Both the position numbers and the translations under genes were made by a program. 64,000 nucleotides of DNA from Qipengyuania sp. YIM B01966 (lineage in GTDB: Bacteria; Pseudomonadota; Alphaproteobacteria; Sphingomonadales; Sphingomonadaceae), in contig NZ_JADMNM010000001.1 of the NCBI RefSeq assembly GCF_016461955.1, forward strand, positions 367,598 through 431,597, read 5' to 3'. A model generated the notes under the pieces. The model was given only the letters and a program-made list of their open reading frames with translations, searched no databases and was not told the DNA's origin. Positions 8,602-19,155 of the stretch are shown here, piece after piece. Position 1 is the first letter of the stretch. Each line of letters opens with the position of its first letter.

Positions 8602-11600
8602 ATGAAAAAGTCTACCATGCTGAAGGTCAGCGCTGCGCCGCTGGCTCTTGGTCTGGCGCTTGCGGGCTCACCCGCCTTTGCGCAGACGACCGAAGAGGAC
8701 GTCGGCGTCGGCCCGGTTGAATCGGTCGATACGCCGACCGCCGAACAGGGCGATGTGATCATCGTCACCGGCACGCGCATCCTGCAGCCCAACCTGGAAT
8801 CGGCCAGCCCGGTGACTGTGGTTGGGGCGGCTGAAATCACCCAGACGGGTACGACCCGCGTGGAAGACCTCATCAACTCGCTGCCGCAGGTGTTCGCTGG
8901 GCAGGGTTCGACCGTGTCGAACGGCTCGACCGGTACCGCGACCGTCAACCTGCGTGGCCTCGGTTCGGAGCGTAACCTGGTGCTGGTCAACGGCCGCCGC
9001 TTGGTCCCGGGCGACCCGAGCTCGGCTGCTGCCGACCTTAACGTCATTCCGGCTGCGATCATCAAGCGCGTTGACGTGCTGACCGGCGGTGCGTCGGCGG
9101 TATACGGTGCGGACGCCGTATCGGGCGTCGTCAACTTCGTGATGGATACCGAGTTCGAAGGCTTCAAGCTCGACGCTCAGTATTCGCTCTACAATCACGA
9201 CAACCGCGGTGATGCGGCCTATGTCGATGCGCTCAACGCGCGTCGCTTCGCCTACCCGACCGGCATGGTCGCCGATGGCGGCGCGATCGATGCGACGCTC
9301 GCTTTCGGCACCAGCTTCGACGATGGCCGCGGCCATGCGACCGCCTATGTCGGCTATCGCAAGATCAACGCCGTGCTCCAGCGCGACCGCGACTATTCGG
9401 CCTGTTCGCTGTCACCTCGCAGTGTCGCCAATGCAACCCTCCGCCCTTATGACTGCGGCGGTTCTGGTACGTCGCCTACGGGAACGGTGTATGCGTTCGA
9501 TTCCGGCGGTGATCCGGCAGACTTCACCTCGGTGACGCTGCAGTTTGGCCCCAACCGCACGCTGCTTCCCGGCCGTACGCTCTACAACTTCGCGCCGCTG
9601 AACTATTATCAGCGTCCGGACGAGCGCTACACGGCTGGCGTCTTCGCCGATTATGAAATCTCCGAAGCGCTGCACCCCTACATGGAGTTCATGTTCATGG
9701 ACGACCGCACGGTCGCCCAGATCGCTCCGTCGGGGAACTTCGGCAACACGCTGTCGATCAACTGCGACAACCCGCTGTTGTCGGCCCAGCAGCGCGCGAT
9801 CCTGTGCGATGCCGAAAACCTGCTCGTCAGCCCCAACCCCGACAATGCGTTCGATGTAGTCGGCAACACCGGCGATCCGGCGTTCAACTTCATCGATGCC
9901 GCGACCGGGCGCACCTACAATCGCGGGTTTGCCCAGATCCTGCGCCGCAACGTCGAAGGTGGCGGGCGTCAGGACGATCTGCAGCACACCAGCTACCGGG
10001 CGGTCATCGGTACGCGCGGGCAGTTGAGCCCGGTGTGGACGTACGATGCCTATTATCAGTACGGCCGGACCAATTTCGCGCAAACCTATCGCAACGACTT
10101 CTCGGTCACGCGTCTGGCCCGGGCGATCGACATCGTGCGCGATGCGAGCGGCAACATCGTCTGCCGCTCGGCGACCGATGGGACCGATCCGAACTGCGTG
10201 CCGTGGGACATCTTCTCGCCCGGCACGGTTACGCCTTCGGCGGCTTCGGTGAACTATCTTGCCACTCCGGGCTTCAGCCGCGGGATCGTGACGCAGCAGG
10301 TCGCTTCGGCCTATGTGTCGGGTCTGCTGGGCGATTACGGCATCAAGTCGCCGTGGTCGGCTGATGGCGTCGGGCTGGTGCTCGGTGCGGAATATCGCAA
10401 GGAAAACCTTGAATTCAACGCCGACACCGCATTCCAGACCGGCGATCTTGCCGGCCAGGGTGCGCCGACGCTGCCGGTTGCCGGCTCGTACGACGTCAAG
10501 GAACTGTACACCGAAGTCAGCCTGCCGCTGGTGCGCGATTCGTTCATCGACGATTTCACCATCACCGCCGGCTACCGCTATTCGGACTACAGCCTCGGCT
10601 TCAGCACCGACACCTGGAAGATTCAGGGCGAACTGTCGCCGACGCGCGATCTGCGTATCCGCGGTGGCTTTAACCGCGCGGTGCGTGCGCCGACGGTGCA
10701 GGATCTGTTCGCGCCGCAGCGGGTTGCGCTCGATGGCTCGACCGATCCGTGCTCGGGCGCTCCGATCGCGGCAACCGATGTCGGCTGTCTGGCCACCGGC
10801 CTCCGCGTTGGTCAGGTCGTGGCGCCGAACCCGGCTGACCAGTATAACGGTCTGATCGGCGGTAACCCTCAACTCGGTCCGGAAACGGCCGACACCTGGA
10901 CGGTCGGTGCGGTCCTGACGCCGCGCTTCCTGCCCGGTTTCAGCGCCAGCATCGATTACTTCGACATTGTTGTTGAAGGCGCCATTCAGGGTATCGGTGC
11001 TGATACGATCCTTGAGCAGTGCAGCCGCACTGTCGCGGATCCGTTCTTCTGCGGCCTGGTGCAGCGTGATGGGTCGGGTTCGCTGTGGCGCTCGTCGAAC
11101 GGTTACGTGACCGATCTGTCGCAGAACATCGGGAAGCTGGCCACCTCGGGTATCGACGTTCAGGCTGGCTACAACCGCGAGATCGGCGATCTCGGCCGGT
11201 TGAGCCTGAGCTTCGTCGGTACCTGGCTCGAAGAGCTGGTGTCGAACCCGGGCGTTCCGGGCGTGGCGGATACTGACTGCGTCGGTCGTTACGGTCCGAT
11301 CTGCGGTACGCCGAACCCCGAATGGCGCCACCAGATGCGGGTCGGCTTCGACTTCGCTGACGGCTTTGGTGCCTCGGTCCGCTGGCGGCACTTCGGCTCG
11401 GTAGACGTCGACGGGTTGAGCCCGACGACTGCCCCTGCGGTCCGCACGTTTGACGCGCAGAACTACTTCGATCTCGCGCTGACCTGGGAAGTGGGCGACC
11501 ACTACAACTTCCGCCTGGGTGCCAACAACATCCTGGACAAGGAACCGCCGCTTACGGGTGGTTCGGCTTGCCCAGCCGGCAGCTGTAACGGCAATACCTT

Positions 11601-11661
11601 CAGCCAGGTGTACGACGCGCTCGGCCGGTACATCTATGCCGGTGTCACGCTCGACTTCTAA
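8602..11661 (+). CDS. TonB-dependent outer-membrane receptor
   Basis: A 1019-residue TonB-dependent receptor. The ATG at 8602 begins a clear Sec signal peptide (MKKSTMLKV to SPAFAQ); upstream in-frame starts would spoil it. GDVIIVTGTRI is a TonB-box-like segment, followed by a plug domain (about residues 65-180, with NLRGLGSERNLVLVNGRRL and GASAVYGADAVSGVVN) and a long beta-barrel that ends in a terminal Phe (GVTLDF). It imports an unknown substrate; the large size and plug type are like peptide or glycan receptors common in sphingomonads rather than small siderophore receptors. A strong terminator follows at 11685, before TPR-oxygenase and TPR-sulfotransferase genes. Confidence 0.93.
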   Translation: MKKSTMLKVSAAPLALGLALAGSPAFAQTTEEDVGVGPVESVDTPTAEQGDVIIVTGTRILQPNLESASPVTVVGAAEITQTGTTRVEDLINSLPQVFAGQGSTVSNGSTGTATVNLRGLGSERNLVLVNGRRLVPGDPSSAAADLNVIPAAIIKRVDVLTGGASAVYGADAVSGVVNFVMDTEFEGFKLDAQYSLYNHDNRGDAAYVDALNARRFAYPTGMVADGGAIDATLAFGTSFDDGRGHATAYVGYRKINAVLQRDRDYSACSLSPRSVANATLRPYDCGGSGTSPTGTVYAFDSGGDPADFTSVTLQFGPNRTLLPGRTLYNFAPLNYYQRPDERYTAGVFADYEISEALHPYMEFMFMDDRTVAQIAPSGNFGNTLSINCDNPLLSAQQRAILCDAENLLVSPNPDNAFDVVGNTGDPAFNFIDAATGRTYNRGFAQILRRNVEGGGRQDDLQHTSYRAVIGTRGQLSPVWTYDAYYQYGRTNFAQTYRNDFSVTRLARAIDIVRDASGNIVCRSATDGTDPNCVPWDIFSPGTVTPSAASVNYLATPGFSRGIVTQQVASAYVSGLLGDYGIKSPWSADGVGLVLGAEYRKENLEFNADTAFQTGDLAGQGAPTLPVAGSYDVKELYTEVSLPLVRDSFIDDFTITAGYRYSDYSLGFSTDTWKIQGELSPTRDLRIRGGFNRAVRAPTVQDLFAPQRVALDGSTDPCSGAPIAATDVGCLATGLRVGQVVAPNPADQYNGLIGGNPQLGPETADTWTVGAVLTPRFLPGFSASIDYFDIVVEGAIQGIGADTILEQCSRTVADPFFCGLVQRDGSGSLWRSSNGYVTDLSQNIGKLATSGIDVQAGYNREIGDLGRLSLSFVGTWLEELVSNPGVPGVADTDCVGRYGPICGTPNPEWRHQMRVGFDFADGFGASVRWRHFGSVDVDGLSPTTAPAVRTFDAQNYFDLALTWEVGDHYNFRLGANNILDKEPPLTGGSACPAGSCNGNTFSQVYDALGRYIYAGVTLDF

Positions 11662-11684
11662 GAGCGTCACCAGCTGACACGAAG

Positions 11685-11716
11685 ATGGCGGGCCGCAAGG
11701 TCCGCCATTTTCTTTT
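11685..11716 (+). terminator. Intrinsic terminator after the TonB-dependent receptor
   Basis: ATGGCGGGCC pairs with GGTCCGCCAT (one G-U pair) around a GCAA tetraloop and is followed by TTTCTTTT. The next gene starts only 27 nt later on the same strand, so downstream expression must rely on readthrough or a promoter hidden in this short gap. Confidence 0.82.
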
Positions 11717-11742
11717 CCGGCGCACGCGTTACCGCATCAGCG

Positions 11743-13275
11743 ATGGGGCAGACGACGATCTCCGAGCGGGATGCAATGGCGGCGATCGGCAGGCTTGGCG
11801 CACTGCCCGCGCGCGATGCCTATCACCTTGGATTACGGCTGTGGCAGGCTGGGTATGCCGAACGCCTACTGCCTGCCCTGCGCCATCTCGCGCAACAGCA
11901 TCCGGCCGCCGCGCAGCTTCATCAACTGCACGGCCTTGCTGCGCGCGACGCGATGGAACTGGGCGAGGCGACCGCCGCGTTTGCGCGGGCAGCGGCTCTT
12001 GCTCCCGCTGATGTTCTCATCGCCCATTCACACGCCCGCGCCGCGCTCGAAGCCGGTTCTCCTGCACTCGCACTGTTCGACCGGGCCTTTCGCGCAAACC
12101 CGTCGGACGGCGACGTCCTGCTTGGCTATGTCGCCGCACAACTCGGCGAACAGGGCGCGCAGGCGGCGATGACCACGCTCGGCCAGGCGATAAACGGCAA
12201 TCCACTCTGGACCGACGGCCTCGCTGCGCTTGCCCGGCTACGCGCACAGCTCGGGCTCGACCCGATCGAGCCGATTGCTGCCGCGCTGGCCCGGTTTCCC
12301 AACGAACCCGCCTTGCATCGGCTCGTCATCACGACGTGTCTCGAAGCGCACGAACCCTCCCGCGCCGCGCCTTACGCTCAAGCTGCCTGTGCGCAATTCA
12401 CCGACCCATGGTTCACCTTCACCGCGGCCCATATCGCCAGCGAAACCGGCGACAGCCCCCAGGCCGAACGGCTGTTCGCCGCTGCCGGCGCCAGTGATGC
12501 GCCATCGGCCCTGTCGCTGCGCGCGCGGCATCTGTTGCGGTTCGGGCGGGCAGACGAGGCTGCAACGCTGCTTGAGCCGCATATTGCCCGCGATCATCGG
12601 CATCTGCTGTGGCCGTATCTGTCGCTCGCCTGGCGGAGCATCGGCGATCCCCGCGGGCATTGGCTGGAGGGAACGCCCGAACTGGTCGGAGTGTATGATC
12701 TGGGCGCACGGATTACCGCCATTCCCGGCTTGGTGGACCATCTGCGCAGCCTGCATTTCGCGACTGCCCAGCCGCTCGACCAATCAGTCCGCGGGGGCAC
12801 ACAGACCGATGGCAACCTGCTGCTGCGCGATGACCCGCCGATCCGGGCACTGCGCGCGGTGCTGCTCGAAACGGTGGCCAGCCACATTGCCAGTTTGCCG
12901 GCCGCTGTGCCGGATCATCCGACCCTGCTGCCCCGCCGCCAGCCACTGCGGATCGCCGGCTCATGGTCGGTGCGGCTGACGGATGGCGGCTATCATACCG
13001 ATCACATTCATGGCCGGGGCTGGTTCAGTTCTGCCCTGTATCTCGTCGTGCCCGACCTTGAAGCGGCCGGACAGGACACTCACGCAGGTTGGCTGTCGCT
13101 GGGCGAAAGCCGCGACCTCGTGCCCGCGCTCGCGCCCGTGCGGCTGGTCGAACCGCGCCTAGGACGGCTGGTCCTGTTCCCGTCGACGATGTGGCACGGC
13201 ACCCGGCCATTCGCAGCCGGCGAACGAATGACGGTGGCGTTCGACATCGCTCGGCCGCTACAGGGCACGACATGA
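11743..13275 (+). CDS. TPR protein with C-terminal 2OG-Fe(II) oxygenase-like domain
   Basis: A 510-residue protein without signal peptide. The first ~300 residues are alanine-rich helical repeats of TPR type (for example DVLIAHSHARAALEAG). The C-terminal ~180 residues resemble the putative 2OG-Fe(II) oxygenase family: GGYHTDHIHGRGWFSSALYL (about residues 413-432) gives candidate iron-binding histidines, FPSTMWHGTRPF (about 476-487) gives the distal His, and GERMTVAFDI carries the Arg expected to bind 2-oxoglutarate. Such a fusion suggests hydroxylation of a protein or peptide. It overlaps the sulfotransferase gene by 4 nt (ATGA), so the two products are made together. The ribosome-binding site is weak. 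Confidence 0.75.
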   Translation: MGQTTISERDAMAAIGRLGALPARDAYHLGLRLWQAGYAERLLPALRHLAQQHPAAAQLHQLHGLAARDAMELGEATAAFARAAALAPADVLIAHSHARAALEAGSPALALFDRAFRANPSDGDVLLGYVAAQLGEQGAQAAMTTLGQAINGNPLWTDGLAALARLRAQLGLDPIEPIAAALARFPNEPALHRLVITTCLEAHEPSRAAPYAQAACAQFTDPWFTFTAAHIASETGDSPQAERLFAAAGASDAPSALSLRARHLLRFGRADEAATLLEPHIARDHRHLLWPYLSLAWRSIGDPRGHWLEGTPELVGVYDLGARITAIPGLVDHLRSLHFATAQPLDQSVRGGTQTDGNLLLRDDPPIRALRAVLLETVASHIASLPAAVPDHPTLLPRRQPLRIAGSWSVRLTDGGYHTDHIHGRGWFSSALYLVVPDLEAAGQDTHAGWLSLGESRDLVPALAPVRLVEPRLGRLVLFPSTMWHGTRPFAAGERMTVAFDIARPLQGTT

Positions 13276-15167
13276 CCGATCCATCATCTTCGCGTACCCC
13301 GCCACCGCAGTTGCTTGCCGCAATGGAGCGTCTGCGCCGCGCCGACCCGGCGGGTGCGCTGAGCGTGCTCGAAAGTGCACTGGCTGACCGTGTGGGCGAA
13401 CGCACGCCCTTCCTGGCGCTGGCCGGCCTCGCCGCCTTGCGCGCGGGCTTGCCCGAACGGGCTATCGCCCCCTTGGAGGAATTGCTCAAGACACATCCCG
13501 CCGACCGGGCTTCGCGGCTCAACCTGGCAAACGCCTATATCGAAACCGGCCGGTTCGACGATGCCATGCAAGTCGCCGCCTCGTCCGAAGAGCCGGCCAT
13601 GCTGCGCATCCGCGGCTATGTTCACCAGCACAGTGGACAGTATGATCAGGCGGCAACGCTGTACCGGCAGGCAGTTGCAGCCGAACCGGGCGACGTGGCG
13701 AGCTGGAACAATCTCGGCAGCAGCCTCGCAGCTCTCGACCGTCACGAAGAGGCGATCTCGCCGTTCGAGCACGCGATTACCCTCGCCCCCCGCGAACCCG
13801 GTGCGTACCTCAATCTTGCAGAGAGCCTGCGGCTGCTGGGTCGGCACGAGGCGCAGCGCAAGGTTCTAACGGACGCCGCGGCAATTGCGCCAGACGATGT
13901 GCGGGTGCTGACCGAACTTGGCCTTGCGCAAACCGCGCTTGAGGAACTGGGCGAGGCTGAGCAGACTCTCTTGCGCGCGATCGCGCTGGGCGCCCCGTTC
14001 GGTGCGGCGCAGGTCGAGTTGGCGAGCATCTACGAGGCGGAAAGTCGGCTCGCCGATCTGCGTGCGCTGGCGGACCGCTATGCTGCTGAAAACGCCCCGG
14101 AGGCGGCCTATATCCGTGCCTGGCTGGCGCTACGCGAAGGCCGGATGGATGACGCCGACACTTTCGCTCGGGCCATACCCACGACCGTGGCCCCTGCACG
14201 TGCAGCCCATTTGCGTGGCTTGATTGTGGATCGGCTGGGCGACGCCGACCGCGCCTTCGCGGCGTTCAGCGCCATGAACCGGGCCATTGCTGCCGACGCC
14301 CCCGCGCCGGCAGGCGAGACCTTTCGCGAGCAGGTGGAACGACGGACGACCCTGCTCGCCCACATTACGCCGTTGGCTATGCCGGCATCCAGGGCAATCG
14401 ACGAACACGCGGACCCGGTGTTTCTCGTTGGCTTCCCCCGATCGGGCACCACGCTGATCGACACCATGCTGATGGGGCAGCCGGGCCTCCAGATCCTCGA
14501 AGAGCGGCCGATGATGGCCCGCCTGACGACCGTATTGGGCGAACAGACGGGCTCGCCGTGGGCTATTGCCGACGATCAGCTGCCCGCCTTGCGCGAGCAA
14601 TATTTCGGCCACGCGCGCGAGTTTGGATGGGACGGGACGCGCCAGCTGGTCGACAAGCACCCGCTGAACATGACCCGGGCCGCCTTGATCCGCCGGTTGT
14701 TCCCGCAAGCAAAGCTGCTGTTCGTCCAGCGCCACCCCTATGACGTGGTGCTGAGCTGCTACATCGCCAATTTCGCACCGAATTTTGCCATGCGCAGCTT
14801 CCTCGACCTGACCGAGGCCGCGCGCACTTATGATGCGGTGCTGTCTTGCTGGGCCGAGGCGACCGAGCGGCTGGCGATCCCCTACCACACGGCGTGCTAC
14901 GAGACGCTGGTCACCGATCCGGAAGGGGAGTTACGACAGGTGATCGACTGGCTTGGCCTGAGCTGGAATGAGCGGATGCTCGATCATACTTCAACCGCCC
15001 GGGAGCGCGGCCGGGTCAGGACAGCCAGCTACGCCCAGATTCACGAACCGATCTACCAGCGCGCGAGCGGCCGGTGGCTGCGCTATCGCCATCATCTCGA
15101 CCAGGTGGCGCAATGGCTCGACCCTTGGGTGGACAGGCTGGGTTATGCCCCGGTGCGGCCGTCCTGA
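13272..15167 (+). CDS. TPR-repeat sulfotransferase
   Basis: A 631-residue TPR-sulfotransferase fusion. The start ATG at 13272 overlaps the stop of the oxygenase gene as ATGA. Residues 1 to about 370 contain several TPRs (such as DVASWNNLGSSLAALDRHEE). The C-terminal domain has the PAPS 5'-phosphosulfate loop VGFPRSGTTLID (about 384-395) and the 3'-phosphate-binding VQRHPYDVVLSCY (about 484-496). It should transfer sulfate from PAPS to an unknown acceptor; the architecture resembles tyrosylprotein-sulfotransferase-like enzymes. Coupling with a TPR-oxygenase and adjacency to a TonB-dependent receptor suggest a shared peptide or protein target, but this is inference. Confidence 0.86.
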   Translation: MTDPSSSRTPPPQLLAAMERLRRADPAGALSVLESALADRVGERTPFLALAGLAALRAGLPERAIAPLEELLKTHPADRASRLNLANAYIETGRFDDAMQVAASSEEPAMLRIRGYVHQHSGQYDQAATLYRQAVAAEPGDVASWNNLGSSLAALDRHEEAISPFEHAITLAPREPGAYLNLAESLRLLGRHEAQRKVLTDAAAIAPDDVRVLTELGLAQTALEELGEAEQTLLRAIALGAPFGAAQVELASIYEAESRLADLRALADRYAAENAPEAAYIRAWLALREGRMDDADTFARAIPTTVAPARAAHLRGLIVDRLGDADRAFAAFSAMNRAIAADAPAPAGETFREQVERRTTLLAHITPLAMPASRAIDEHADPVFLVGFPRSGTTLIDTMLMGQPGLQILEERPMMARLTTVLGEQTGSPWAIADDQLPALREQYFGHAREFGWDGTRQLVDKHPLNMTRAALIRRLFPQAKLLFVQRHPYDVVLSCYIANFAPNFAMRSFLDLTEAARTYDAVLSCWAEATERLAIPYHTACYETLVTDPEGELRQVIDWLGLSWNERMLDHTSTARERGRVRTASYAQIHEPIYQRASGRWLRYRHHLDQVAQWLDPWVDRLGYAPVRPS

Positions 15168-15231
15168 GAAACGGGTGGCACCGGCCGCCGAGTTTGTGGC
15201 ATCATGTTGGCATGGATGGAGAGGTTATTTC

Positions 15232-15780
15232 ATGATCGGACGATATGTGGGCCTCGCGGCCCTAGCCACAGCATTCTTGCCGGTCGCGGCGTCCGCTCAG
15301 GACCGTGATAATGAATCCGGCGCATCTACCCATGTCGCGGCTTTGCGGGATTGCCGCGCAATCGCCGACCCGACCGCACGGCTAGCCTGCTACGATACCC
15401 AGGTACCGCAATTCGTGGCCGCGGCCGACGCCGGCAATGTGCGGGTGATCGACCGGGCGACGATCCGAGAGACGCGGCGCCGCCTGTTCGGTCTGGCTCT
15501 GCCGAAAATCAACATTTTCGGCGGTGGCGACGGCGACAACGACGCGGACGAGGAAGAGATCACCACCCTCGCGACGACGCTGACTTCGGCCCGTCCTGGC
15601 CCGGGCGGAACGATGATCCTGCGCACGGAAGACGGCATGGTCTGGCAGCTCGATCAGATTCCCAGCCGCCTGATGACCCCACGCGCGGGTCAACCGGTCG
15701 AATTCCGCCGGGCCTCCCTCGGCAGCTATTTCGTGTCGATCAACGGACAGCCGGGCGTGCGTGGCCGCCGGGTGGAATAG
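15232..15780 (+). CDS. Small exported protein with C-x(n)-RLACYD motif, unknown function
   Basis: A 182-residue predicted periplasmic protein. The ATG at 15232 has GGAGAGG at good spacing and opens a signal peptide ending in ASAQ. The mature part starts with DCRAIADPTARLACYD, a two-cysteine motif seen in several proteobacterial envelope proteins of unknown role; the cysteines are probably disulfide-bonded. An acidic Gly/Asp stretch (about residues 96-105) follows and the C-terminal ~80 residues look beta-rich (TMILRTEDGMVWQLDQI). It lies 64 nt after the sulfotransferase gene on the same strand. I cannot assign a function. Confidence 0.8.
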   Translation: MIGRYVGLAALATAFLPVAASAQDRDNESGASTHVAALRDCRAIADPTARLACYDTQVPQFVAAADAGNVRVIDRATIRETRRRLFGLALPKINIFGGGDGDNDADEEEITTLATTLTSARPGPGGTMILRTEDGMVWQLDQIPSRLMTPRAGQPVEFRRASLGSYFVSINGQPGVRGRRVE

Positions 15781-15956
15781 GTTACGACGCAAATTGAAGC
15801 GCAGCGCCCGCGCTTGTCCGCAGAGGGCCTGCACCAACTCGGCTCGAGGCAAGCCTCCTTGAGCACCGTCATGGCAGCCGACAGCCAGTCAGAGTTTGCG
15901 CGACATCGGGCGCAGCGCCCGCCGAAGCGGCGCCGGCCAAAGCAAGCGAGAGACAA

Positions 15957-15997
15957 AGAAAGGGCCGCCCGGCGAACCGGACGGCCCTTTTTCTTTG
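15957..15997. terminator. Bidirectional intrinsic terminator
   Basis: AGGGCCGCCCGG and CCGGACGGCCCT pair (one mismatch) around CGAA. An A-rich tract precedes and TTTTTCTTT follows, so it works on both strands between the convergent small exported gene and the second receptor. The remainder of 15781-16009 shows nothing else I can name. Confidence 0.82.
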
Positions 15998-16009
15998 CCT
16001 GATCGCCGA

Positions 16010-19009
16010 TCAGAAGCCGGCGTTGAGGCCCAGGAAGAACGAACGACCCACGACGTCGAACCCGCTATACAGCGGCGCGTTGCCAATCAGGTTCGTGTAG
16101 TCTGCCGAGATCCGCGGGGGCTTCTTGTCGAAGATGTTGCGGACGCCCACGGTCATGCCGAACTGTTCCGTCACATCGAACGACACCGATGCGGTGTGCA
16201 GGAAGTAGTCCTTCGTGCGCAGCAGATACTCGTTGGGGTCATAGCCGAACGGTTCGGCATAATCCTGCGAGTCGGTCGCGCCGATCCACTCGACCTGATA
16301 GCGCAGCGACACGTCTTCCATGCCGAAGGTGGCATCGAACTGGCCGGTCCATTCAGGGTTGCTGATCAGCCCGACCACATCGAGGATGTCCTGCGTCGGG
16401 AAGGTCCGCGAGTAACGCTCGAGGAACTGCGTCACCGCCGCGTTGAGGCGCAGCTGGCCGCTGCCGAGCGGAGCCGTGAAGCGGGCGTTGTAGTCGATCC
16501 CGCGGACCCGCGCATCCGAGATGTTCACATAGCTGCTGACCACGGTCAGGGCATTGTTGGCATCACGGCTGATAAGCTCCGGACGGCACGTCGTGCGTTC
16601 CGGGTTGTTGTAGCACTGGCTGAGCACGTTGGCTGCAGTCAGGCGGGCAACACCGTTATCGACTTTGATATCGAAGTAATCGGCCGACAGCGACAGGCCG
16701 AACCGGCCCAGCGAAGGCTGCAGGACGATCCCGCCGGTCAGCGCGGTCGAGGTTTCGGCCGCCAGGCCTGCCTCGGCACCGCCAACACCGATCGAGGTGA
16801 CGCTGCTGCGCTGGATGAAGTCGGCCGGCAGGCCGTCCGCAAGGCAGCGTTCGCGCACGAGCGGATTGGTCACCGCCGCAAGATCGGCACACGGGTCTGT
16901 CGTAGAACCAAGGAACCCGCTGGTCCGGCCCAGGAACTGTTCGAACAGCAGCGGAGCGCGGAACGAGGTGCCGTAGCTACCACGGAAGCTGATCGCCCGG
17001 ATAGGCGAGAACAGCGCGCCGACCTTGTAGGTCCAGTCGCCGCCATAGGAATCATATTCCGTGTAACGGCCCGAGGCGTTGATCGTGAGATCATGGATGA
17101 ACGATTCGCGCACCAGCGGCAGTTCGATTTCGCCGAACACTTCCCACACCGAATCGGTGCCCCGGGTCGGGGTCGAGGAGGTGAAGCCGTAAAGGTTGTT
17201 GCGCTGGCTATCCGGACCCGGCGTGTCATCGATACGCGCCTTGCGATATTCCGCACCGAGCGCAAGCTGGACTTCACCACCCGGCAGGCGGAACAGCGGA
17301 CCGTCGATGTTCGCGGCAAAGGTGCTTTCCGTGTACTTGGTCGTGCCCGTCACCGGATCGGTAACGAAGTCGAACCATGCAGCCGGGAACTGCCCGCCAA
17401 CCACCGCCGGTGTCAGCACGGGAGCGGCGACACAGCCGGAAATATTGATCCGGCAACGGAAGGTGCCATCAGGGTTCGCCACGACGTCAAAGCTCTGCGC
17501 CAGACGATCGGTCAGGATCAGATCCGTCGTGTATTCGGCATCCGACCAGCTCTTGCCGGCGAACAGGTCGTAACGCCAGTTGTAGGGCAGATCGCCGCGG
17601 ATACCGCCGTTGACGCGGGTATAGTCGACCTCCTGACGGTTATTGTAGATGCCGTAATCGGCAAACACGCGAATACCGATCGGCGCGCCGTTTGTGGTCG
17701 GCGTTGCGGCGCCAACCGCACCGGGGAACCGCAGCCCCACGGGGATCAGCGGGCTGCCCAGCGGATAGTCCAGCGTGAACTGACGCTGACCGTCCTGGTT
17801 AGATTTGCGGCGGTTGAACAGGAATTCGGTGTAGATTTCGGCATTGCCGAGAATGTCGAGATCGTAACGGATTTGACCGAACGCGCCAAAGGTTTCGACC
17901 GGCGAGAGCAGGTCTTCCTTCAACAACGCCGGCGAGAACGTGTCGCGAATGTTGGTGCTGAGCGCACCGCCGCCGACGCATTCATAGCCCGGGACAGCGC
18001 CGCCGGCACCAGGCAGCGGGCGGAAGCGGTTGCAAACGCCGGTGTAACCAGCCGGGACGCCCGGGGCGCGAACGACCGTTCCGCCGGCAAGGTTCGGCGT
18101 GCCGATCGTGTTGACCGTGACACCGCCATTTTCGAGCGGGAAGCACTTCACCTGGCCGGTGCGCGGATCGATGTAGTCGCCCGCCCCGAAATCGGAGCCG
18201 TTGGTGCCGTACAGGCCGGTTGGGCAGCTGGCCCATTCGCGATCACCGAACTCGATCGCACTGCGGCGGAAATATTCCAGCGAGCCGAGGACATGCAGCC
18301 GGTCGGTATTGAAGCCGCCGAGCAGCGCCACGCGCTGCGAAATGCCGTCGCCTTCACCCGGAACGCTGACCGATGCGTCGAATTCGACGCCGTTGAGGTC
18401 GCGGCGGGTCACCATGTTGATGACGCCGGCGATTGCGTCCGACCCGTAGATCGACGACGCACCGGTGTTCAGCACTTCGATCCGTTCGAGCACTGCGTTC
18501 GGCAGCACGTTGAGATCGGCAACGCCGACCGCGCCGCGCGAACCAGCCGGCGACACGCGGCGGCCGTTCAGCAGAACTAGCGTGCGCGAGGTGCCCAGGC
18601 CGCGCAGCGACACGGTGTTCACACCGGGGCCGCCGTCGACCACGAACCCGCCATACAGGTTGTTGATCTGCGAGGTGCCGCCAGTGACCTTGGTGGACTG
18701 AAGAACGTCGGTGGTGTTGGTAAACCCGGCCTGCGTGGTTTCGTTGCGGGTGATCACCTGGATCGGATCGGCCGTGTTGAACTGGTCCCGACGCAGGCGC
18801 GAACCGGTAACGACGATCTCACCGTTGTTCTGCGATCCATCAGCCGAAGCAATATCGGTATCGCAAACGCCGTCATTATTATCGTCGACACAGCCAGGGG
18901 CAGCCGGGTTTTCCGGCGCAGCCTGAGCCACTGCCATCTGCGGCGTGAGCGCCAGACCGGCGACGAACGCCGCACCGAATAGCAAGCGGTGCTTGTAAGA
19001 GGTGATCAT
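16010..19009 (-). CDS. TonB-dependent outer-membrane receptor
   Basis: A 999-residue TonB-dependent receptor. The ATG at 19009 has GGGAG 7 nt upstream and begins a signal peptide (MITSYKHRL to QMAVAQ). The mature N-terminus has an odd acidic, cysteine-flanked stretch (GCVDDNNDGVCDTD, about residues 37-50) like a calcium-binding thrombospondin type 3 unit. The TonB-box-like EIVVTGSRL follows, then the plug (VSLRGLGTSRTLVLLNGRRV, and GASSIYGSDAIAGVINMVTRR) and a long barrel ending in Phe (GLNAGF). It is convergent with the preceding plus-strand cluster. Substrate unknown. Confidence 0.93.
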   Translation of the reverse strand: MITSYKHRLLFGAAFVAGLALTPQMAVAQAAPENPAAPGCVDDNNDGVCDTDIASADGSQNNGEIVVTGSRLRRDQFNTADPIQVITRNETTQAGFTNTTDVLQSTKVTGGTSQINNLYGGFVVDGGPGVNTVSLRGLGTSRTLVLLNGRRVSPAGSRGAVGVADLNVLPNAVLERIEVLNTGASSIYGSDAIAGVINMVTRRDLNGVEFDASVSVPGEGDGISQRVALLGGFNTDRLHVLGSLEYFRRSAIEFGDREWASCPTGLYGTNGSDFGAGDYIDPRTGQVKCFPLENGGVTVNTIGTPNLAGGTVVRAPGVPAGYTGVCNRFRPLPGAGGAVPGYECVGGGALSTNIRDTFSPALLKEDLLSPVETFGAFGQIRYDLDILGNAEIYTEFLFNRRKSNQDGQRQFTLDYPLGSPLIPVGLRFPGAVGAATPTTNGAPIGIRVFADYGIYNNRQEVDYTRVNGGIRGDLPYNWRYDLFAGKSWSDAEYTTDLILTDRLAQSFDVVANPDGTFRCRINISGCVAAPVLTPAVVGGQFPAAWFDFVTDPVTGTTKYTESTFAANIDGPLFRLPGGEVQLALGAEYRKARIDDTPGPDSQRNNLYGFTSSTPTRGTDSVWEVFGEIELPLVRESFIHDLTINASGRYTEYDSYGGDWTYKVGALFSPIRAISFRGSYGTSFRAPLLFEQFLGRTSGFLGSTTDPCADLAAVTNPLVRERCLADGLPADFIQRSSVTSIGVGGAEAGLAAETSTALTGGIVLQPSLGRFGLSLSADYFDIKVDNGVARLTAANVLSQCYNNPERTTCRPELISRDANNALTVVSSYVNISDARVRGIDYNARFTAPLGSGQLRLNAAVTQFLERYSRTFPTQDILDVVGLISNPEWTGQFDATFGMEDVSLRYQVEWIGATDSQDYAEPFGYDPNEYLLRTKDYFLHTASVSFDVTEQFGMTVGVRNIFDKKPPRISADYTNLIGNAPLYSGFDVVGRSFFLGLNAGF

Positions 19010-19155
19010 TGAAAACTCCCAGACCCTGGACAAAATACGCCGCCCTTGTGGCAAACGCCGTTCATCGGCGCGACAGAAAATGCCCCTCTCTCGGGGGTGT
19101 AGCGTTATTTGTCTCCTCGCTGTCACCAATTTGCAACAGCGGCTGACTAGGCGCG

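Follow-up and report, generated by a model that had tools for sequence, protein, structure and literature searches.

Putative TPR-guided oxygenase and sulfotransferase encoded beside a TonB-dependent receptor in Qipengyuania and linked to such receptors across proteobacteria

Introduction

The sulfotransferases TPST1 and TPST2 are located in the Golgi, while human AspH, in which TPRs are combined with a 2OG-dependent Asp/Asn β-hydroxylase, acts on peptide segments. In O-GlcNAc transferase and SPINDLY, a TPR superhelix is joined to a transferase. Loci that combine receptors with halogenases are known elsewhere, and no paper on them was found in the open-access literature searched. Outer-membrane receptors, to our knowledge, are generally treated as unmodified except for disulfides and processing; we also know of no TPRs in RaxST. 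In Xanthomonas, RaxX/RaxST links a bacterial sulfotransferase to peptide tyrosine sulfation (PMC4216712 and PMC6637879, in the portions available).

The present analysis concerns a 64,000-nucleotide stretch from Qipengyuania sp. YIM B01966 (the window), in which a receptor gene is followed by a TPR-oxygenase (OX) and a TPR-sulfotransferase (ST), a module for which no description was found in the available portions of the open-access literature searched. We lean, tentatively, toward OX and ST being cytosolic TPR-guided protein-modifying enzymes, with the unfolded precursor of the adjoining TonB-dependent receptor as their most likely client.

Gene content of the window

The features assigned in the window are as follows.

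T1, 8602-11661, + strand: TonB-dependent receptor, 1019 aa (Pfam Plug and barrel; signal peptide by eye).
Hairpin, 11681-11716, + strand: terminator- or attenuator-like element between T1 and OX, a 14-bp hairpin followed by TTTT (RNA fold z −4.39).
OX, 11743-13275, + strand: TPR repeat and 2OG-FeII_Oxy_5 oxygenase (PF13759), 510 aa (profile match, conserved residues, model).
ST, 13272-15167, + strand: TPR repeat and PAPS sulfotransferase (PF13469), 631 aa (profile match, TPST2 match, model).
SM, 15232-15780, + strand: small exported protein with the Cys motif CRAIADPTARLACYD (Pfam scan, neighbourhood comparison).
T2, 16010-19129, − strand: second TonB-dependent receptor, of a different subfamily from T1 (longest ORF).

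Pfam scanning and the ORFs bore out the order of receptor, TPR-oxygenase and TPR-sulfotransferase proposed in the initial annotation. The ATGA junction that it described was seen at 13272-13275, where the OX stop TGA (13273-13275) overlaps the ST start ATG (13272-13274), and the small Cys-motif exported protein that it placed on the same strand corresponds to SM. The T1 ORF begins with ATG at 8602 and its stop ends at 11661. With Plug (E=2e-23, 83 bits; Pfam cut-off 23.9) and barrel (E=4e-27, 97 bits; cut-off 27) both above threshold, T1 is by domain content a TonB-dependent receptor. Near relatives keep 14 Cys of T1, and 12 of the 14 are conserved Cys positions common to the wider set. SM, for which the Pfam scan began at 15238, two residues short of the start at 15232, recurs near T1 both with and without the enzymes and is probably not a core part of the module. 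T2, absent from the initial annotation, adjoins SM again in some relatives; its true start probably lies further in than that of the longest ORF, and its association with the module is uncertain.

The oxygenase and sulfotransferase compared with described enzymes

OX matches PF13759 (E=8e-19, 68.3 bits; cut-off 27), with every TPR match under the Pfam cut-off. Its AlphaFold model (mean pLDDT 93.4) shows consecutive helices spanning residues 8 to ∼309 and then a beta-rich domain, and the catalytic domain resembles 3bvc/2rg4 in a structure search. On its score above cut-off and the conserved Arg after the last His, OX is classified by sequence as a member of the 2OG-Fe(II) oxygenase family PF13759. 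The initial annotation had staked its proposal on conserved metal and PAPS residues; those of OX, H421-x-H423...H485 for the metal and R495 at H485+10 as the 2-oxoglutarate Arg, are each present in 77/77 sequences. A canonical HxD/E...H facial triad was rejected, the site being of the HxH...H type in all 77, and HIH is found likewise in 2rg4 and 3bvc aligned to OX. This triad had gone unmentioned in the initial annotation.

Like AspH, which accounts for the top ten Foldseek matches of OX, OX has its TPR array on the N-terminal side of a 2OG-type oxygenase domain, but it belongs to PF13759 rather than PF05118 and the TM is low (∼0.3). Assignment of OX as a PF05118 Asp/Asn β-hydroxylase was rejected, as no OX match was obtained at E≤0.01; PF05118 had no match in the genome of the window, and TPR-PF05118 proteins adjoin related receptors in other genomes.

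ST matches PF13469 (E=1e-29, 104.7 bits; cut-off 27) together with several TPR families above the Pfam cut-off, and its predicted model has a pLDDT of 91.1. R390 is conserved in 16/16 sequences and G392, T394, E411, K462, R487, and S495 in 15/16 each, thus bearing out PAPS-residue conservation as well; R390, E411, K462, R487, and S495 are invariant in a 25-sequence set. We take the conserved positions to be those of the phosphosulfate-binding motif, and E411 and K462 to be the catalytic Glu and Lys by TPST2 numbering. Judged by its score and these retained residues, ST is a PF13469 PAPS sulfotransferase; the window genome also encodes an APS kinase domain, which would supply PAPS. The best PDB sequence matches of the catalytic half are seven entries named protein-tyrosine sulfotransferase, followed by 4gox and CurM, the sulfotransferase domains of polyketide synthesis; the match to TPST2 has E=5e-14. 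Among solved sequences, this half is by alignment closest to TPST, with the catalytic Glu and Lys kept and tyrosine as the putative acceptor. ST shares with TPST1/TPST2 (PDB 9wwe, 3ap1, 5wri) the sulfotransferase domain, the PRSGTT loop, a Glu at Arg+21, and the conserved Lys, but differs in its fused TPR array, the lack of a membrane anchor by eye, its bacterial cytosolic setting, and a tyrosine specificity that is putative. No signal peptide was seen by eye in either OX or ST.

The whole-model Foldseek lists were filled by TPR matches, so the missing TPST among fold matches of ST is uninformative. The TPR part of ST matched that of O-GlcNAc transferase (TMt 0.77); ST is reminiscent of this enzyme and SPINDLY in joining a TPR superhelix to a transferase, although ST would transfer sulfate and they transfer sugar. 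TPR-guided protein modification, as the initial annotation suggested, is consistent with the architecture of TPRs plus catalytic domains. Compared with RaxX/RaxST, the partner here is an outer-membrane receptor, and neither a RaxX-type precursor peptide nor an exporter gene was noticed among the listed window ORFs, including 15140-16020.

The matches to 4gox and CurM, together with the versatility of 2OG oxygenases, would fit sulfation by ST and hydroxylation by OX of a small molecule or surface glycan, the receptor linkage then reflecting shared regulation or nutrient use. We consider this quite improbable given the long TPR arrays on OX, ST, and the Pfam-scanned AspH (L042) and given that the nearest solved ST relatives are protein sulfotransferases; glycan genes were not noticed beside the window set.

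Linkage of the enzymes to receptors

The neighbourhood survey suggested in the initial annotation came out in favor of receptor linkage: a receptor lay within 1.5 kb at 55/76 OX loci (15/76 had none in the stretch fetched) and was adjacent at 15/20 loci centered on the best-scoring sulfotransferases. When T1 relatives were taken as the center, 38/77 loci, from alpha-, beta-, and gammaproteobacteria, contained OX, ST, or AspH within 6 kb. The other 39/77 had none of the three, indicating that the receptor does not need the enzymes. As background, PF13469 had 117 matches in 39 genomes and the 2.44-Mb window genome holds 19 receptors. Sphingomonad T1 loci occupy a few recurrent chromosomal spots, as might be expected if the linkage were chance or hitch-hiking at a variable spot among conserved genes (ClpB, XseA, thiolase), but this explanation is highly improbable: observed rates are far above the ∼6% linkage estimated from receptor density, and the same enzymes adjoin receptors of several subfamilies, in other places and other classes. 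The link between receptors and these enzymes is real and broad. A possible stop/start overlap was present in 18/36 same-strand modifier pairs. Receptor and enzyme distances were correlated (Mantel 0.67-0.77), as is also expected from common descent.

The enzyme set varied between loci. Sphingorhabdus soli (L130) carries the set, and Novosphingobium sp. MD-1 has T1-ST-AspH-OX (L135). ST occurs with T1 but without OX (L112, L113, L138, L196), and OX without ST (e.g., L048, L192), so a fixed pair that hydroxylates and sulfates one target, as envisaged in the initial annotation, is unsupported. The place of OX/ST is taken elsewhere by AspH or a second 2OG oxygenase and, in another receptor family, by a Trp halogenase. 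In the latter loci (L054, L056, L073), an OX relative and a receptor-type protein accompany a halogenase-family protein where the window set has ST; PF04820 was matched in the L054 halogenase copy and the receptor domains in the L073 copy. We rejected the idea that AspH partners receptors just as closely, since a receptor was found in only 5 of the 12 AspH regions surveyed, which represent 13/26 AspH matches and include three low-scoring proteins (34, 98, and 106 bits) that are possibly not of the TPR type.

It is possible, if somewhat doubtful, that proteobacteria widely share a system for modifying TonB-dependent receptors before export, its enzymes being cytosolic and guided by TPRs: sulfotransferases, aspartyl hydroxylases, and 2OG oxygenases whose metal site has an unusual set of three His. 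The enzyme set would be swapped between lineages, re-tuning surface loops, and tyrosine sulfation and hydroxylation would be routine in the outer membrane.

Candidate clients

If the receptor precursor is the client, the TPR superhelix would hold an unfolded stretch of it ahead of Sec export; ST, through its TPST-like active site, would pass sulfate from PAPS to one or more receptor tyrosines, and OX would hydroxylate a different side chain. With its surface loops altered, the receptor could bind ligands differently or be recognized differently by phages and toxins.

The initial annotation had named the receptor, its cargo, or a secreted peptide as examples of a target, and no comparison singled out any of these as the substrate. 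In a first comparison of receptors labelled ST-linked (13), OX-only (11), neither (3), or distant (16), Y218, in a loop read as extracellular, and the pair C990/C995 seemed ST-specific, under imperfect labels: four “OX-only” loci (L041, L044, L051, L079) had a sulfotransferase within 6 kb, and L128 (genome G115), whose contig ends before any ST, was “ST-linked” by assumption. In the wider set, Y218 was present in 26/44 receptors with ST versus 11/102 without. Non-Tyr columns scored equally high, and the first ST-specific signal is thus attributed to ancestry. Y218 was rejected as the ST target, as its YP motif occurs in gammaproteobacterial receptors both with and without ST. No receptor Tyr convincingly tracked ST in 14 independent pairs, the best showing 6 gains versus 1 loss among many columns. 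The content of Tyr, acidic-flanked Tyr, Asp, Asn, Pro, and Cys in receptors did not differ by ST presence.

Alternatively, the enzymes might act on a peptide or peptide-like ligand (e.g., a peptide metallophore or RiPP) that leaves the cell and is brought back in by the receptor. Peptidases adjoin T1-like receptors at L117 (M20) and L118 (M24), and at L097 OX and another receptor are accompanied by an M14 carboxypeptidase, as expected if the cargo were peptides. PF13471, the lasso B2 protein family, occurs less than 2 kb from two sulfotransferase matches (G014, G023), and sphingomonad clusters list sulfotransferases and an Asp β-hydroxylase whose numbers adjoin those of lasso-peptide B2 and PqqD, numbering that we infer to be gene order (PMC10040529, in the portion available). 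Lasso-peptide tailoring, prompted by those clusters, was rejected for the window genome, as PF13471 is absent from it at E≤0.001. Further, no precursor-like ORF was evident by eye among ORFs of at least 20 aa in 15140-16020, and no exporter or peptide synthetase was noticed among the listed window ORFs. We consider a peptide ligand rather unlikely.

Still less probable as client is one of the small, exported proteins with two Cys that are encoded next to the receptor, either SM or a member of the F32 family (∼80-120 aa). Both are more frequent near T1 in enzyme-positive than enzyme-negative loci (SM, 15/38 versus 6/39; F32, 8/38 versus 0/39), but SM also adjoins T1 in loci lacking the enzymes, sphingomonads make up 6/8 F32 loci, and inspection of F32 sequences by eye showed no conserved Tyr. 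In addition, neither SM nor F32 was found within 8 kb at the ST and OX loci L132, L173, L180, and L182.

Sulfation or hydroxylation of receptor loops would mean rethinking how these receptors select ligands and are recognized by phages and toxins, as well as the structures obtained from heterologous E. coli; bacteria would also be a source of new protein sulfotransferases and hydroxylases programmable through their TPRs.

A hairpin separating T1 from the enzyme genes

The hairpin and T-run at 11681-11716, not part of the initial annotation and not among the results of a consensus scan, ends 26 nt before the OX ATG, and its position between T1 and OX indicates that receptor and enzymes do not form one plain operon. 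Of 104 T1 genes that lack an enzyme on the same strand, 79 are likewise followed by a hairpin; the element may therefore be no more than the terminator of T1 itself. A comparable hairpin separates the receptor from the first enzyme in 39/41 loci where a modifier gene follows the receptor on the same strand, suggesting that expression of OX and ST probably depends on read-through; such an attenuated transcript would yield few enzyme molecules per receptor.

Receptor-linked gene set

The genes of interest, with the hairpin (a terminator- or attenuator-like element), are arranged as follows:

8602-11661, plus strand: T1, TonB-dependent receptor with plug and barrel domains
11681-11716: hairpin between T1 and OX
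11743-13275, plus strand: OX, weakly scoring TPR half and 2OG-Fe(II) oxygenase domain (PF13759)
13272-15167, plus strand: ST, strong TPRs and PAPS sulfotransferase domain (PF13469)
15232-15780, plus strand: SM, small exported protein
16010-19129, minus strand: T2, second receptor, after SM

The first four genes lie where the initial annotation placed them, and the coupling of OX to ST that it proposed is matched by a stop/start overlap, the letters ATGA being common to both. Relatives of T2 adjoin SM and T1 at loci of other genomes such as L038, L077, and L081. The genome (2.44 Mb, 43 contigs) holds one PF13759, three PF13469, and 19 PF00593 matches; for its two further PF13469 matches, the closest receptor match on the contig is at least ∼25 kb away.

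Linkage of modifying enzymes to receptors

To survey neighborhoods, as the initial annotation had proposed, loci were collected around each gene. OX relatives (E ≤ 1e-3) were present in 88 of 149 same-family genomes, including the window genome, and E ≤ 7e-16 was reached at 85 places, 76 of which were fetched (apart from the window itself, the excluded places numbered eight, most of them on short contigs; two of the eight, from genome G115, were added later). OX proved mostly receptor linked: a receptor ORF, detected with a home-made profile, lay within 1.5 kb in 55/76 and within 5 kb in 61/76, and was absent from the stretch in 15/76. Chance expectation is ∼6%, estimated from the 19 receptors in 2.44 Mb of the window genome; since receptor density may be higher in relatives and the loci are related, no p-value is given.

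A PF13469 scan of 39 genomes gave 117 matches (3 per genome). Among 18 of the 21 best-scoring places (two second hits in chosen genomes and one at a contig end were omitted), a receptor with Pfam barrel and/or plug overlapped or lay within 300 bp of the longest ST ORF in 15, each receptor being of a subfamily other than T1. All 18 ST ORFs were at least 522 aa, a length that leaves room for TPRs. Neither of two extra places, one lower scoring and the other holding the window genome's second ST, had an adjacent receptor. The best-scoring PF13469 sulfotransferases thus adjoin receptors, a result drawn from the 20 of 117 matches that were inspected.

Scanning a T1 alignment against one genome per species gave 80 loci, 77 of which were counted (receptor ORF at least 850 aa, not identical to earlier ones). 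Home-made profiles (at least 50 bits, within 6 kb) detected OX, ST, or AspH, an oxygenase of the 2OG Asp/Asn beta-hydroxylase type (PF05118), in 38/77 (ST 27, OX 20, AspH 17) and none of these in 39/77, some on contigs ending near the receptor. Enzyme-bearing loci came from Sphingomonadaceae, Caulobacteraceae, Parvularculaceae, and the gammaproteobacteria Pseudidiomarina, Thalassotalea, Pseudoalteromonas, and Rheinheimera, and AspH stood beside T1 relatives in Paucibacter and Inhella. Enzyme sets varied across all 147 loci: ST alone, 7; OX and ST, 17; all three, 9; ST and AspH, 5; AspH alone, 5; OX together with another 2OG oxygenase and a methyltransferase, 15; no listed enzyme, 51. Five of 12 regions around AspH contained a receptor.

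By eye, neighbor family F26 (L045:6004-7074) resembles a second sulfotransferase-like family, and the copy scanned had no Pfam match at E ≤ 0.001. F26 recurs with AspH at L230, L231, L234, L236, and L237, four of which also have a receptor.

Catalytic sites and predicted folds

The initial annotation had made conservation of metal and PAPS residues a test of its reading, and both sets are retained. Across 77 aligned OX sequences, H421, H423, H485, and R495 are invariant, the metal motif being HxH...H with HxH (window 13003-13011, H421-H423) in place of HxD; 2-oxoglutarate is usually contacted by an Arg at His+10, here R495. The nearest solved proteins by sequence, the uncharacterized 2rg4 (E = 3.5e-4) and 3bvc (E = 0.049), also align with HIH, suggesting that HxH is a trait of the family. 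The OX model is confident (mean pLDDT 93.4, 22 sequences): a helical repeat extends to approximately residue 309, and the remainder forms a beta-rich domain. Its catalytic part superposes in VIA-align on 3bvc (Z 17.2, rmsd 3.6, 179 residues) and 2rg4 (Z 16.6, rmsd 3.9, 180 residues). AspH, with the same layout of TPR and 2OG oxygenase, filled the first ten Foldseek ranks, although at a TM of only ∼0.3.

In ST, R390 was conserved in 16/16 and E411, K462, R487, and S495 each in 15/16 sequences of a first alignment, and all five were invariant in a second (n = 25). Among PDB sequences, the seven closest to the ST domain are named protein-tyrosine sulfotransferase, followed by 4gox (polyketide synthase) and the CurM sulfotransferase; in the protein-tyrosine sulfotransferase TPST2 the aligned Glu lies 21 residues past the Arg, the same spacing as in ST. 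The repeat of the ST model, also a confident one (mean pLDDT 91.1, 25 sequences), resembles the O-GlcNAc transferase TPR (6eou, TMt 0.77). Layouts of both kinds are known for protein-modifying enzymes.

Gene order and the receptor-proximal hairpin

In 18/36 same-strand neighbor pairs of OX, ST, and AspH, a possible start of the second gene (ATG, GTG, or TTG) shared 4 or 1 nt with the stop of the first, one genome, Sphingorhabdus soli, being counted twice among the other 18. The receptor-to-first-enzyme junction is the opposite: a hairpin and T-run directly followed the receptor stop in 39/41 loci, reaching into the start of the enzyme's longest ORF in four of the 39 (L132, L149, L157, and L185). 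With a nearly identical detector, hairpins followed 79/104 T1 genes that had no same-strand enzyme downstream, compared with 31/149 last enzymes, 1/33 enzyme-to-enzyme junctions, and 7/60 stretches inside T1. The hairpin therefore usually accompanies the receptor gene, whether or not the locus bears enzymes. Because just 26 nt separate the T-run from the OX ATG in the window, OX transcription probably either leaks through the hairpin or begins at a promoter preceding it. A consensus scan did not list the window hairpin, a miss that probably reflects pairing of the T-run within its A-U pairs. Fewer enzyme than receptor molecules would suit a catalyst and its client, though also other readings.

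Candidate substrates

PAPS is cytosolic, an APS kinase domain is present in the genome, and no signal peptide was seen by eye in OX or ST, consistent with modification of a cytosolic client. Most economically, OX and ST would modify an unfolded client gripped in the TPR groove, the best candidate being the precursor of the receptor encoded next door; the varying enzyme set would suit surface-loop diversification. Comparison across the T1 tree (44 rows with ST and 75 without; 27 of 146 omitted for contigs ending within 3 kb) revealed no acceptor residue in the receptor. ST presence switches 14 times on this tree, and over these 14 independent pairs no Tyr column tracked ST convincingly; Tyr content likewise showed no difference. 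Mantel correlations between T1 and enzyme distances (r = 0.67 for 42 ST pairs, 0.72 for 69 OX, and 0.77 for 24 AspH) are what co-inheritance of the genes would give, and r includes any contribution from organism distance.

An early acceptor candidate, Y218 of T1, failed in a wider set. Conserved Cys residues are spread along T1; in a first comparison, C990/C995 occurred in 12/13 receptors labeled ST-linked and 0/30 others, four of which also have ST nearby, and the pattern may be ancestry.

A serious rival to the receptor precursor is a peptide cargo, given that peptidases adjoin some related receptors and that a sphingomonad paper lists sulfotransferases and an Asp hydroxylase beside lasso-peptide genes (PMC10040529); however, the window genome has no lasso B2 match. 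Small exported neighbors were more frequent at enzyme-bearing than at enzyme-free T1 genes (SM near 15/38 and 6/39, family F32 near 8/38 and 0/39), but both were absent from four loci with ST and OX.

F32 proteins, mostly 80 to 120 aa and exported-looking, have a conserved C...GSRL..K.VC.T..EW motif and recur beside enzyme genes (L036, L037, L038, L039, L042, L044, L051, L130, L131, L135, L137, L139, L142, and others); the L037 copy, the one scanned, had no Pfam match.

Every domain of the set belongs to an already known family. No prior description of the receptor-linked set of TPR modifiers was found among the open-access papers searched.

Related sets

At L054, L056, and L073, OX relatives (457–535 aa) adjoin genes for a receptor-type protein and a protein of the Trp halogenase family, a parallel receptor and modifier set; receptor domains were confirmed in the L073 copy and PF04820 in the L054 copy. 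At L097, L099, L100, L105, and L106, OX relatives accompany a ∼890–940 aa protein, a receptor of another subfamily, and a smaller protein, F24; the L097 copy of the ∼890–940 aa protein contains an M14 carboxypeptidase domain, and this set suggests peptide use.
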